Positions 33,792-37,342 of a stretch of DNA of 64,000 bases are shown here, one piece after another (position 1 is the stretch's first letter; each line of letters starts with the position of its first letter). The notes beneath the pieces were generated by a model. The model was given only the letters and a program-made list of their open reading frames with translations. It was not told where the DNA came from and did not search any database. Origin of the DNA: Ruficoccus amylovorans. GTDB taxonomy: Bacteria; Verrucomicrobiota; Verrucomicrobiia; Opitutales; Cerasicoccaceae. The DNA lies in contig NZ_JACHVB010000034.1 of NCBI RefSeq assembly GCF_014230085.1, positions 62,001-126,000 on the forward strand. Direction: 5' to 3'. Position numbers and translations under genes: made by a program.

Positions 33792-34112
33792 ATGGGAGTG
33801 CCCAATTCCTACGAAGCCCTCGTCCATAACCTGCGTCACTTGCGTGAACTCAATCACTTGACTCAGGAACAAGCTGCCGAAAAAGCGGGCCTGGACTACA
33901 AGCATTACCAGGGGATTGAGGCCGGACGGCGTCCGGAATTACGGCTCTCCACGATTGACAAGCTGGCTGCCGCCTATGGCAAAGAGGCTTGGCAACTGCT
34001 GTGGCTCGGCCCGCAGGACCGCGTCGTTATGAAGAGGCCTCCGGGCCGTCCGCCGAAGACCGCCTCCAAGGAGCAACCAGATCAGAGCCGCTCGCGCAGT
34101 CCGGTAAAATAG
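33792..34112 (+). CDS. XRE-family transcriptional regulator with AT-hook-like tail
   Basis: The 106-residue product from the ATG at 33792 carries a helix-turn-helix of Cro/CI type (about 9-65; RELNHLTQEQAAEKAGLDYKH with GIEAGRR). A short proline-basic stretch KRPPGRPPK (about 80-88) resembles an AT-hook core and is followed by a charged tail. It is divergent from two small genes and its last 31 bp overlap the 3' end of the convergent GH20 gene. It may regulate the divergent pair. Confidence 0.75.
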   Translation: MGVPNSYEALVHNLRHLRELNHLTQEQAAEKAGLDYKHYQGIEAGRRPELRLSTIDKLAAAYGKEAWQLLWLGPQDRVVMKRPPGRPPKTASKEQPDQSRSRSPVK

Positions 34113-35767
34113 CTCCTGCTCTCGGGGAGTCCGCCGGGGCGGTTACGGAGCAACCATTGGGACTCGTGGCAGGAGAGCGCTTCCTCCAACTGCGGGAGAA
34201 GTGTCTCCCGGGATTTGCCCGTGCGGATGGATTCCAACCGTGCCAGTGCGAGCCGGGTCAGTCGGAGGGATTGCGCGGCCTCGTCGCGGAGCCAGTCCGC
34301 GTCCGGACAGCGCGGGCAGGCGCGTGACAGGTGCGCCTCGGCCTCATCGAGCCGGGTGGCGATGGCGACGCTCTCGACCGGAGTGATCTTCTCGGCCAGT
34401 GCGCGGACTTCGTCGATCTCGGCGAAGAGCCCTCGGAAAAGCACGCTGCGGTTATGCTGGCGATGGGTGGTGAGTGACTCGACCGAACCGAGCGCGGCCA
34501 GGGTGCGGGCAAACTCGCCGGTGGTGTCGTTGAGTAAGCGAGTACTTAAAAACTCCGGCCAGCGTTCGACGTTGGCGGCTGCGCCTTCCCAACTGTATTG
34601 AGAACCCATGACAAGTGCGGGTAGCGACAGCGCGTAAGGCTGGATGTGCCCCTGATCTCCCCAGTGGGTCAGGAGCAGACCGTGGGCTCCGTGCCGGAGG
34701 CCCTCGCGGGTGGCCAGAGCGATGTTCGCCTGGGCGGTTTCGAGTCGCCCGTGGGTGCTCAGCCAGGTGGAGTCGCCCGGGGCGACCTGGAACTCCAGTC
34801 CGGCGGCGGCCATCTGCGCGCATTGCTCGGCAAAGGGGTGATCGCGTTCGTAGCCCCAGACGACGGGAACGCTCCCGGCGGGCAGGCGATCGATCAGTTC
34901 GGGGCGCTTGAGCACGATGTCGGCCCAGAATAACATCTGGTGGCCGTGCTTTTCGACCAGTTGGCCGATCTTTTCCAGAAACTCCAGATAAATTTCCTCG
35001 ATGCCCTCTGCCTCTACCTGCGGACGGCTCCAGCCCAGCCCGAGGTCGAAGGTCTCGTCGCAGCCGACGTTGACGCGGCGGCTGCGGAAGTGCGGCAGTA
35101 GCTGGGTGTAAAGTTCGTCGAGAAAGGCCAGACTGTCGGCGTTGGGTTTGAGCGTCGCGCCGTAGGGGCGGAAGTCCCCGAAGGGTGAGGTAAAGCCGTC
35201 CGGGCACTCGGCCAGGTGACGGTAGGCGGGGTGGCGCAGCCAACGTTCGAGGTGGCCGAAGGAGTTTTGGTTCGGGACCAGTTCGATGTGGCGGGCGGCG
35301 CAGGCGGCGTCGAGTTGCTCGATCTCCTCGCCGGTCAGCGGCGAGCTGTCGCGCCAGACGCTCTCATGCCCGGTGTAGGCGAAGGTGTGCTCGGTGTAGA
35401 GCTGGAGCTGATTGTAGCGCAGCGTGGCCAGCCGGTCCACCAGCCGCAGCAGCTCGTCCATCGTCGGCACCTTGCAGCGGCTGATGTCGAGCATGTACCC
35501 GCGCTCGCGGAAGGCCGGCCCGTCGCTGATTTCCAGCCGGGGAAGTTGCCCCTCCGGCGACTGTGCGCGGATCTGGGCCAGCGTGTCGTCGGCGTAGGCG
35601 AGAGCGGCTGTATCGCCTCCGGTGATTTCGATTTTGTCCGGGCCGATGCGGAGTGTGTAGTGCCCAGGAGCCAGGTTGTCATGGATTTTGGATACAAAGA
35701 GCGCGTCGTGCGGGGATGCCGTGCCGGGGTGGAGTTTCAGGCTGCGAGGCTGGGGAAACAGGTGCAT
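34082..35767 (-). CDS. GH20 family beta-N-acetylhexosaminidase-like protein
   Basis: A 561-residue enzyme with an N-terminal GH20b-type domain (about 1-85) and a TIM-barrel carrying the catalytic Asp-Glu pair in NVGCDETFDLG (Asp237-Glu238). It should remove terminal beta-linked GlcNAc or GalNAc. No signal peptide is visible, so a cytoplasmic role in amino-sugar recycling is likely. The C-terminal 150 residues are helical. It lies 51 bp downstream of the MurQ/GCKR-like gene, supporting a two-gene recycling unit. Its 3' end overlaps the XRE gene by 31 bp. Confidence 0.85.
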   Translation of the reverse strand: MHLFPQPRSLKLHPGTASPHDALFVSKIHDNLAPGHYTLRIGPDKIEITGGDTAALAYADDTLAQIRAQSPEGQLPRLEISDGPAFRERGYMLDISRCKVPTMDELLRLVDRLATLRYNQLQLYTEHTFAYTGHESVWRDSSPLTGEEIEQLDAACAARHIELVPNQNSFGHLERWLRHPAYRHLAECPDGFTSPFGDFRPYGATLKPNADSLAFLDELYTQLLPHFRSRRVNVGCDETFDLGLGWSRPQVEAEGIEEIYLEFLEKIGQLVEKHGHQMLFWADIVLKRPELIDRLPAGSVPVVWGYERDHPFAEQCAQMAAAGLEFQVAPGDSTWLSTHGRLETAQANIALATREGLRHGAHGLLLTHWGDQGHIQPYALSLPALVMGSQYSWEGAAANVERWPEFLSTRLLNDTTGEFARTLAALGSVESLTTHRQHNRSVLFRGLFAEIDEVRALAEKITPVESVAIATRLDEAEAHLSRACPRCPDADWLRDEAAQSLRLTRLALARLESIRTGKSRETLLPQLEEALSCHESQWLLRNRPGGLPESRSYFTGLRERL

Positions 35768-35818: not shown

Positions 35819-37342
35819 TCAACTGCAAGAGAGTGCGTCGAGAGTCTTCAGGACAATGGCCTCGTCCGGGCCCAGTGTCTCGCGCACACGATAGAGCACG
35901 CGCGCGGTTTCAGCATAGTCGGCCTCCTGCCCGGTGCGCCGGTGGTAAAGTTCGCGGATGAAGCGCACGGCCCGGTCGATGAGCTTGTTGTTGGAGGGCT
36001 TGACCCAGGTCATAAGGTTGCCCTCGTATCGCCCGAGACGGCCCATGACCAGAGTCGAATGCGTGTTGAGCAGAAGTTTGAGTAAGAGGTGACGGAAAAG
36101 CAGCGGCTGTTCCGCGAGGGCGAGTTGGTGACTGACTGGCCCAAGGTTTAGTGAAATGCCGGTTTCGGATTGAAGGATGCAAAATGTATCGGAATTTTTA
36201 CTACGTCGATGGGTGCGGGCTTTTAGAGAAATATCAAATCCGAGCAGGGTTTCCAGCCCGGCCACGGAGCGGCACTCTTCCCATTCCAGGCATCGCGGGG
36301 TGCGCCGCAGCAGATGTGCCCAGGCGGCGGCGGAGTCAGGTGAATGCGGCAGGCAGAGGTAGCAGAGGCTGGCCGGCTGGCCAGGCAGGCGTGTGTTTTC
36401 AAAAGCGGGCAGGGAAAAGGTCGGGGAGCGCTCGGTGGTGTCAGCCAGCACGGTGATGCCATAGGCATCGGTCTCGTAGAGGATGTGCCCACCCGCAGTG
36501 TAATGATCGCTTTCGGCCGCGATAAATTCAGCCAGAAAACCCCAGTCTGTTTTCATGGCCAGTCGGTTGAAATCCTCCAGCGCGGCGGGGACCTCTTTCG
36601 GTGCTGCGTGATGCTCCAGCGCGAGCCCGGCGGCGAGCATCTGGACCGTGCTGGCCTGCATGCGGGTACTGCCGGTCAGCGCCATCGGGCCGACGCAGAG
36701 GTTGAGTTTGTGGATACCGGGGTGCTCCAATACGCGTCGGGAACGTTCGGCCACGCGGGCCAGCGTTGTATCCGGATTACAATACAGGAACCACGGCTTG
36801 CGCCGGGAGATCGTGGCGGCGGCTTCACACGCGCCAATGACGAAAGGCGTTTCGCCGCCTTCGGTAATGGCCAGCAGCAGGTCCTTTTCGCCAAAGCCCA
36901 GTTCGCGCAACTGGCGTTCGCCATAGGCGGGAAAGTCCTCAAAGCCCTCCAGTGAGCGGATGAGCGCAGCGTCGCCCCCGGCCATGAATCCGGTGACACG
37001 CCCGGCTAATTCGGGAGGCAGTATGCCTTCGCGACTCAGGGTTTCCAGCGCGAGTGAGAGCCGTCCGGTCGCTCCGCAGCCACAAAGAAAGACGTTGCCT
37101 CCAGCGGCGAAGGTATCCCCCACGGCGGCGGCCAGTGCTTGTATGCCGTTGGCGCAGGCGGAGAGTTTTTCCAGCGCAAGGCGGTCCACCTCTTTAAGCG
37201 TGGCGACGGCCTGCGGGAGATCGTGGCGGGCGAGTTCGGAGAGGTTGCGAGTGAGGGGGTGGGGCTGCTCCGTCACGAGTTCGCCGAGGCGGAACTGGTC
37301 CGCCATGAAGAGAAATTCATCCGCGTTGGCTGCTGTTTTCAT
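35819..37342 (-). CDS. MurQ/GCKR-like double-SIS protein
   Basis: A 507-residue protein. Residues 1-240 match N-acetylmuramic acid 6-phosphate etherase (MurQ): CGCGATGRLSLALE (87-100), AGGDAALIRSLEGFED (121-136) with both likely catalytic glutamates, TEGGETPFVIGA, and VGPMALTGSTRMQAST (217-232). In MurQ the next element follows at once, but here about 190 residues intervene before LLNTHSTLVMGRLGRYEGNL and the NNKL segment (about 425-455). This interrupted layout is that of animal glucokinase regulatory protein GCKR, which has a second SIS domain at that place. It could be an etherase, a sugar-phosphate sensor, or both. Confidence 0.75.
   Translation of the reverse strand: MKTAANADEFLFMADQFRLGELVTEQPHPLTRNLSELARHDLPQAVATLKEVDRLALEKLSACANGIQALAAAVGDTFAAGGNVFLCGCGATGRLSLALETLSREGILPPELAGRVTGFMAGGDAALIRSLEGFEDFPAYGERQLRELGFGEKDLLLAITEGGETPFVIGACEAAATISRRKPWFLYCNPDTTLARVAERSRRVLEHPGIHKLNLCVGPMALTGSTRMQASTVQMLAAGLALEHHAAPKEVPAALEDFNRLAMKTDWGFLAEFIAAESDHYTAGGHILYETDAYGITVLADTTERSPTFSLPAFENTRLPGQPASLCYLCLPHSPDSAAAWAHLLRRTPRCLEWEECRSVAGLETLLGFDISLKARTHRRSKNSDTFCILQSETGISLNLGPVSHQLALAEQPLLFRHLLLKLLLNTHSTLVMGRLGRYEGNLMTWVKPSNNKLIDRAVRFIRELYHRRTGQEADYAETARVLYRVRETLGPDEAIVLKTLDALSCS

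Follow-up and report, generated by a model that had tools for sequence, protein, structure and literature searches.

A double-SIS MurQ/GKRP-like protein of Ruficoccus amylovorans with the MurQ catalytic motifs apparently divided between two SIS domains

The gene at positions 35819..37342 (minus strand) of the window, the 64,000-nucleotide stretch of the Ruficoccus amylovorans genome that was analyzed here, encodes a double-SIS MurQ/GKRP-like protein of 507 amino acids. Judged from its sequence, the protein resembles a MurQ pseudo-dimer fused into one chain, with a single composite active site. A split of the catalytic motifs over the two halves of the chain is well supported by the sequences compared; within the composite site, E304 of the second SIS domain (SIS-2) would reach across the domain interface to the phosphate loop of the first (SIS-1).

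The open reading frame starts with ATG at position 37342, reads down to 35819 on the minus strand and comprises 507 codons. Identity to orthologues reaches up to 80%, and 27 relatives align end to end with the protein (28 rows). The best NCBIfam MurQ match has an E-value of 1.4e-42, and the scores stay below the cut-offs of all three MurQ models matched: 115.4 bits vs 302 for the equivalog TIGR00274, 145.8 vs 168 for PRK05441 and 127.9 vs 255 for PRK12570. Pfam GKRP_SIS_N reaches its cut-off with 43 bits vs 27 at residues 80-172, Pfam SIS_2 is borderline, and Pfam GKRP_SIS_2 and GKRP-like_C had no match up to an E-value of 1. Because of the NCBIfam MurQ match, the GKRP_SIS_N match and the end-to-end relatives, the assignment is not a chance match. 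The genome holds a single double-SIS gene; the sole further match up to E 1 has an E-value of 0.04.

The signature GSTRMQAST occupies residues 224-232 and LLNTHSTLVMG starts at residue 424, which leaves 191 residues between them, as the first-pass annotation had estimated (about 190). Its claim that this stretch is missing from ordinary MurQ agrees with phmmer, in which the comparison with MurQ 4s12 splits into two matches around the insert: MurQ residues 3-207 fall on residues 16-237 of the protein, and residues 205-249 fall on 422-466. Since no gap opens in MurQ between the two matches, about 184 residues are inserted that MurQ does not have. Three parts can be delimited on the minus strand. 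SIS-1 with the N-terminal part (residues 1-245; 36608..37342) is the MurQ-like half with the phosphate loop and contains the MurQ match at 16-237 and the GKRP_SIS_N match. It is followed by the SIS-2 insert (residues 246-416; 36095..36607) and by a C-terminal helical lid (residues 417-507; 35822..36094), to which MurQ residues 205-249 and the GKRP lid match.

The AlphaFold2 model of the whole protein, built from an alignment of 28 sequences, has a pLDDT of 93.5 and a pTM of 0.93, and the predicted model has the fold of GKRP and its order of SIS-1, SIS-2 and lid. GKRP chains rank first in a Foldseek search with the whole model (E 4.3e-16). In VIA-align 2 the predicted model (residues 13-507) aligns with GKRP 4bb9 over 450 residues at 2.8 A with Z 36.9, and with MurQ 4s12 over 214 residues with Z 22.8. 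Modelled alone from 51 sequences, SIS-2 has a pLDDT of 88.3; its best match is MurQ 4lzj with Z 7.4, a value short of what the tool regards as safe, and residues 274-476 of frog GKRP follow with Z 7.2 over 138 aligned residues at 3.2 A. Among the top 20 structural matches of SIS-2 alone, 17 are by title MurQ, GKRP, heptose or phosphosugar isomerases, 1x94 and 5lu5 are of these kinds as well, and one is HobA. Foldseek returned no match for SIS-2 alone at E up to 0.001, and Pfam SIS no match on the insert. An unguided hhalign comparison of the SIS-2 alignment with the MurQ alignment gave an E-value of 0.001 at a stated probability of 21% and a score of 31.6, which was reached by none of 100 column-shuffled MurQ alignments (highest 26.3) nor by the reversed alignment (12.1). 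Taken together, the fold match over the full length, the place in the chain, the hhalign comparison and the top 20 structural matches make the 191-residue insert most likely a second, divergent SIS domain at the position of GKRP SIS-2. The interrupted double-SIS layout of animal GCKR, as first proposed for this gene, is thus upheld by fold, position and motif: in structure prediction and comparison with GCKR and MurQ the insert came out SIS-like, and a non-SIS outcome was not found.

The motif comparison covered 58 different double-SIS proteins of full length, with truncated ones such as L040 and L044 excluded, and 23 domains of single MurQ (26 single-type rows minus two repeat copies and L114). 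In 23/23 singles one SIS domain holds both the loop G-x-G-[TS]-S-G-R and the motif D-x-x-E-x-x-P-T-[FY]. SIS-1 of the doubles carries the phosphate loop, as G-C-G-[AS]-[TS]-G-R, in 58/58 and the first catalytic motif of MurQ (DASE-CPPTF) in 0/58, while SIS-2 carries DTTERxPT[FY] in 58/58 and the phosphate loop in 0/58. The column of the first MurQ glutamate holds E in 23/23 singles and 0/58 doubles, where M (16), L (13), A (12), F (8), I (4), V (3), S (1) and R (1) occur instead. The loop and both catalytic glutamates, which MurQ unites in one SIS domain, are split over two in 58/58 doubles. This complementary motif loss, against both motifs together in 23/23 singles, was counted for a composite site. 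Unguided hhalign puts DTTERSPTF of SIS-2 onto DASExPPTF of MurQ, and DAVECVPTY of frog GKRP aligns at the same place.

Of the two candidate catalytic glutamates named in the first-pass annotation, the one in LEGFED is in place: this stretch belongs to the MurQ motif, though the glutamate aligning with GKRP Glu153 is its second one, E135. The one in LETL does not, as E100 (E in 51 and D in 7 of the 58 doubles) lies off the first-glutamate position, a column free of glutamate in 58/58. The MurQ glutamates themselves we take to be Glu83 and Glu114 (E. coli numbering). The annotation had further suggested that the insert gives the etherase a regulatory SIS domain of its own; this is not the best reading, since SIS-2 holds the conserved glutamate that SIS-1 lost (58/58), so that the insert looks like half of an active site and not like an add-on, though it may still play a regulatory part.

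All motifs of the window protein are encoded on the minus strand. The phosphate loop GCGATGR (residues 88-94; 37061..37081) aligns with the Gly107-Ser110 region of GKRP. In the E132-G-F-E135-D136 motif (36935..36949), E135 is kept in 58/58 doubles, 23/23 singles and 2/2 GKRP. GSTRM (residues 224-228; 36659..36673) contains S225, T226 and R227, which are invariant in the 58 doubles and 23 singles. DTTERSPTF with E304 (residues 301-309; 36416..36442) represents the first catalytic motif of MurQ relocated to SIS-2. The lid motif N451-x-K453-L-I-D-R457 (35972..35992) aligns with Asn512, Lys514 and Arg518 of GKRP, and its N451, K453 and R457 are present in 58/58 doubles. The loop ITEGGETP (residues 159-166; 36845..36868), which aligns with GKRP 178-185 and with AASGRTP of MurQ, differs from MurQ. 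In the doubles E161 and G162 are each found in 56/58 and E164 in 58/58; in the ASGRT loop of the singles the position of E161 has A in 20/23 (otherwise S or C), that of G162 has S in 21/23 and that of E164 has R in 13/23. The two exceptions, L054 and L056, retain a MurQ-like ASGES. The exchange of ASGRT for TEGGET may mark a somewhat different substrate.

Some unusual double-SIS proteins were also seen. L054 (838-3030, minus strand) and L083, from the same genome region, join the double-SIS part and a C-terminal SAM methyltransferase domain in one frame, with two GH130 genes nearby (L083, 7929-9798). Genome G209 contains a degenerate double-SIS paralogue (L114, 1295-2818, plus strand) with the loop GGACESAR and without the DTTER motif, possibly a bacterial pseudo-etherase parallel to GKRP, as well as an intact double-SIS copy (L127, 1742-3697).

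As to function, we lean somewhat towards a fused MurQ pseudo-dimer whose one composite site removes the D-lactyl ether from a 6-phosphorylated muramyl sugar. SIS-1 would contribute the phosphate loop (GCGATGR, GSTR) and E135, both of which it keeps; SIS-2, which lost the loop, would bring in E304 from the other side of the interface between the domains; and N451, K453 and R457 of the helical lid would close the site, giving one asymmetric active site per chain as in GKRP. The reaction would convert MurNAc-6-phosphate to GlcNAc-6-phosphate and D-lactate, for which GH20 would prepare the substrate. MurNAc-6-phosphate etherase activity appears likely for the double-SIS protein.

The neighborhood of the doubles bears on this assignment. 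A GH20 beta-N-acetylhexosaminidase-type gene (34082..35767, minus strand; Pfam GH20, 53.4 bits) lies 51 bp downstream on the same strand, which agrees with the pairing noted in the first annotation; a signal peptide was not seen by eye in its product. A same-strand GH20 gene adjoins at least 8/58 doubles, seven of them from the window's own family, in which nine doubles are known, and the eighth being L081 at 1.4 kb; another double, L088, has a GH20C neighbor. These neighbor counts are minima, with at least 1.3 kb available on both sides in 47/58 loci. L037, L038 and L044, of which L044 is a truncated double outside the 58, each have a gene for a GlcD-like FAD oxidase next to them; these are 3/5 named Bdellovibrionota loci, and two gene orders occur. 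All three oxidases are under the GlcD cut-off (68.8 to 296.7 bits vs 567.9, L037 being the weakest). Two of the three come from records with the same genus label, and the remaining one is recognized by the Pfam C-terminal oxidase domain only. GlcD-like oxidases act on glycolate and D-lactate. The double-SIS gene of L032 is surrounded by ABC transporter genes, two for solute-binding proteins and four for permeases. A part resembling the C-terminal half of L074 is fused to 8/58 doubles and adjoins 2; in the three fusions that were scanned Pfam assigns it to DUF6259, and no paper naming DUF6259 was found in the literature searched. Single frames of 1280-1334 aa joining double-SIS and DUF6259 were seen in L074 (5005-9006), L076 (5474-9313) and L077 (4561-8442), all on the plus strand. 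Among 46 neighbor proteins from other loci scanned with Pfam, one of which adjoins the single MurQ of G003, no steady theme recurs beyond GH20/GH20C, the GlcD-like oxidases and the transporter genes of L032.

NagA, BadF and NagB queries were found adjoining 1/58 doubles, and PfkB and ROK queries 0/58. The one case is genome G101, where nagA, the double-SIS gene (L056), a BadF-type GlcNAc kinase gene and nagB follow each other on one strand. NagA (297.7 bits) and NagB (264.6 bits) are over their cut-offs and the kinase (227 bits) is below; among the matches listed, G101 has no MurQ-like match besides the double-SIS frame. Flanked by nagA, kinase and nagB without another MurQ-like match, the double-SIS gene thus stands in the etherase slot of the operon. 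A genetic link between MurQ and the MurNAc kinase MurK is reported for Tannerella (PMC10465942). The G101 operon is the strongest support for an etherase, but it is a single locus in a lineage with the MurQ-like loop; its transfer to the window protein is weaker, since L056 is one of the two doubles with that loop.

In the genome of R. amylovorans itself neither AnmK nor a BadF kinase was found at E up to 0.001, and both were dropped as kinase partners of the window protein. Four ROK matches are over the cut-off. A locus on a different contig from the window gene (L121, 6495-10738, contig C60 of G000) contains PfkB, NagB-like, NagA-like and NagC-like ROK genes, the NagA-like and NagB-like matches both being below the NCBIfam cut-offs. 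With these two genes, a route for the etherase product probably exists in the genome.

Counted against the etherase assignment were the missing AnmK and BadF in the own genome, a GH20 linkage lying mostly in one family and a nag operon in 1/58. The same holds for the TEGGET loop, the GlcD-like scores under the cut-off, the 21% probability from hhalign, the genomes with strong AnmK (8/11 with single MurQ, 1/11 with a double) and the chance-level co-occurrence of the two forms. Animal GKRP keeps both glutamates and yet is known as a regulator, so their presence is no proof of catalysis. The same composite build might instead serve another reaction or substrate; a dehydratase, an isomerase or a lyase acting on some other 6-phosphosugar is a reading that we regard as possible but doubtful. 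The strong conservation of E161 (56/58) and E164 (58/58) at positions held in MurQ by A and often by R, the two kinases not found in the own genome and the DUF6259-type fusions (8/58) speak for it, as does the SIS relative NagS, a GlcNAc-6P dehydratase (PMC12680351); the nagA/double-SIS/kinase/nagB order and the GlcD-like neighbors nevertheless fit removal of a lactyl ether better, and the R position of MurQ varies among the singles too (R 13/23).

A GKRP-like sugar-phosphate sensor that binds another protein, such as a ROK kinase, and regulates it without catalysis would be in keeping with GKRP as best fold match, with the good part of GKRP ligand residues that is kept and with the ROK-family genes of the own genome. 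We consider it unlikely, given that both glutamates and their surroundings are invariant in 58 divergent proteins and that no kinase gene is a steady neighbor (BadF 1/58, PfkB and ROK 0/58); in the G209 paralogue, moreover, the loop and DTTER were lost together, which in this one case suggests joint retention for catalysis. A recent insertion of unrelated sequence into a single-SIS MurQ, finally, could explain why Pfam SIS and Foldseek (E up to 0.001) give no match to the insert alone, and yet it is hardly credible for an insert that is SIS-like in the whole model, by hhalign and by VIA-align, that occurs in 58 proteins of several phyla, and whose bearers split from the 23 single MurQ with 100/99 support.

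In the tree of SIS-1 and lid, the doubles (58; support 100/99), the singles (23; 99/95) and GKRP (2; 100/100) each form one clade. The doubles thus stand apart from the 23 singles on a supported branch, and a placement within single MurQ, which the first-pass annotation had named as a refuting outcome, was not found. The GKRP branch has a length of 4.13 in this unrooted tree, for which the tool flags a meeting of long branches and eight rows of odd composition. Over the whole sequence, GKRP scores no lower with the single-MurQ profile than with the double-SIS profile (113.3 vs 99.4 bits for human, 103.6 vs 94.0 for frog), whereas the best single stretch favors the double-SIS profile (76.1 vs 98.1 and 69.7 vs 92.3, respectively). 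The stretch before the GPM/GPE motif measures 27-29 residues in the doubles, 41 in GKRP and 18-26 in the singles, and Arg200 before this motif occurs in 56/58 doubles, in both GKRP and in no single. The earlier suggestion of a relative of the GCKR ancestor is therefore only partly sustained: the architecture and the longer stretch before GPM/GPE favor it, the whole-sequence scores do not, and the branch is too long to place GKRP. That animal GKRP was derived from an asymmetric fused etherase like the bacterial doubles, reduced to one composite site by complementary motif loss, and not straight from ordinary MurQ, with the doubles as surviving enzymes and GKRP as the sensor, is put forward as a tentative idea that we hold with more doubt than confidence. 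The path from a bacterial cell-wall enzyme to the liver glucokinase regulator is described as one from MurQ to GKRP in the title of a 2009 study by Veiga-da-Cunha.

GKRP (PDB 4bb9, 3w0l) shares with the window protein the order of SIS-1, SIS-2 and lid, the full-length fold and a SIS-1 without a DASE-type motif, and E135, E304 and the N/K/R of the lid align with Glu153, Glu348 and Asn512/Lys514/Arg518. It differs in length (chains of 619-638 residues vs 507), at 22% identity on the structural alignment, and in keeping T-S in the loop and S-x-G-x-S where the window protein has A-T and T-E-G-G-E; the SIS-2 motif is DAVECVPTY in frog GKRP and DTTERSPTF here. According to PMC4109836, fructose phosphate is bound in GKRP by Glu348 and His351 of SIS-2, by Glu153 and loop residues of SIS-1, and by Asn512, Lys514, Leu515 and Arg518 of the lid. 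Glu348 in SIS-2 and Lys514 in the lid as ligand residues were counted in favor of the composite site. The human numbering used agrees with Trp222, Trp335 and Trp517 of that source; its Leu178 is Ile in the chain used. Of 13 ligand residues mapped on this basis, seven are identical (Glu153, Gly181, Gly256, Arg259, Asn512, Lys514 and Arg518), Ser is replaced by Thr at Ser110, Ser179 and Ser258, and Gly107, Thr109 and Ser183 are changed; Glu348 to E304 and His351 to P307 were mapped only via the alignment of frog GKRP.

With MurQ (4s12, 4lzj) the window protein has a homologous SIS-1 and lid in common; the phosphate-loop glycines and arginine, GSTR, E135 and the K/R of the lid are kept, and the SIS domain of MurQ can be aligned with SIS-2, its DASE motif included. 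MurQ differs in having one SIS domain per chain with both motifs, and ASGRT in place of TEGGET. BadF kinase-MurQ and ROK-MurQ fusions are likewise multi-domain MurQ relatives from the same phylum, the BadF fusion even from the same genus (L020), but combine one MurQ-type SIS domain with a kinase-type domain and have no second SIS domain. GlmS/GFAT and other double-SIS isomerases have two SIS domains in one chain. They align with Z about 22 over roughly 300-320 residues at 8-12% identity and, to our knowledge, have neither the lid of the double-SIS protein nor the MurQ motifs.

The double-SIS family is a widespread variant of the MurQ/GKRP kind. Doubles occur in at least 106/387 sampled Verrucomicrobiota genomes (E below 1e-80; partial frames only in four of them, G331, G392, G394 and G401), a minimum, as the search scored at most three candidates per genome. 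Single MurQ was found in 49/387. Both forms share a genome in 12/387 cases vs 13.4 expected (p 0.73), a count from which four ROK-MurQ fusions (186-198 bits), all in genomes with a double, were dropped; with them, 16 genomes have both vs 14.5 expected. That the double form generally takes the place of single MurQ, as a 54-genome search and the genus of the window had suggested, was rejected, since co-occurrence is as chance predicts. In that search of 54 genomes, 16 had doubles, 4 singles and none both, a weak 208-aa frame in G042 being counted as neither. Within the genus of the window, G000-G002 have the double, and G003 has a BadF-MurQ fusion (L020, 1192-3219, minus strand) and no double-SIS match. 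Many of the BadF matches found in the phylum are about 700 aa long. Strong AnmK (11 of 19 rows, E below 1e-50; G222, which passes the Pfam cut-off with 25.2 bits, was dropped) occurs in 11 Verrucomicrobiota genomes, 8 with single MurQ, 1 with a double and 2 with neither; G049 is a further double with AnmK. Named double loci come from Verrucomicrobiota, KSB3, Fibrobacteria, Bdellovibrionota, Planctomycetota and Lentisphaerae records. A record with the label Woesearchaeota, perhaps owing to a binning error, holds a protein (L031) 52% identical to that of the window. MurQ-like SIS domains with the motif DAVELPCTY or DCVELPCTF were observed in L123 (1697-3349, minus strand), L124 (555-2405, plus), L125 (1217-2782, plus) and L126 (1110-2756, plus); the N-terminal domain is ROK by Pfam in L123 and L125, the two scanned, and the group is apparently a kinase-etherase fusion unlike BadF-MurQ.

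In the literature searched no description of bacterial double-SIS homologues was recognized; Veiga-da-Cunha et al. 2009 and the papers on MurQ and GKRP-glucokinase structures lie outside that search. A bacterial family with the GKRP layout and split catalytic parts provides a bacterial stage accessible to expression and assay, and offers a route to testing how an enzyme turned into a regulator, namely that of liver glucokinase. For the Verrucomicrobiota it means that a MurQ-like gene is under-called by current models, with scores below their cut-offs, in at least 106 of the 387 genomes; if the etherase reading is true, the use of MurNAc in this phylum would be underestimated.
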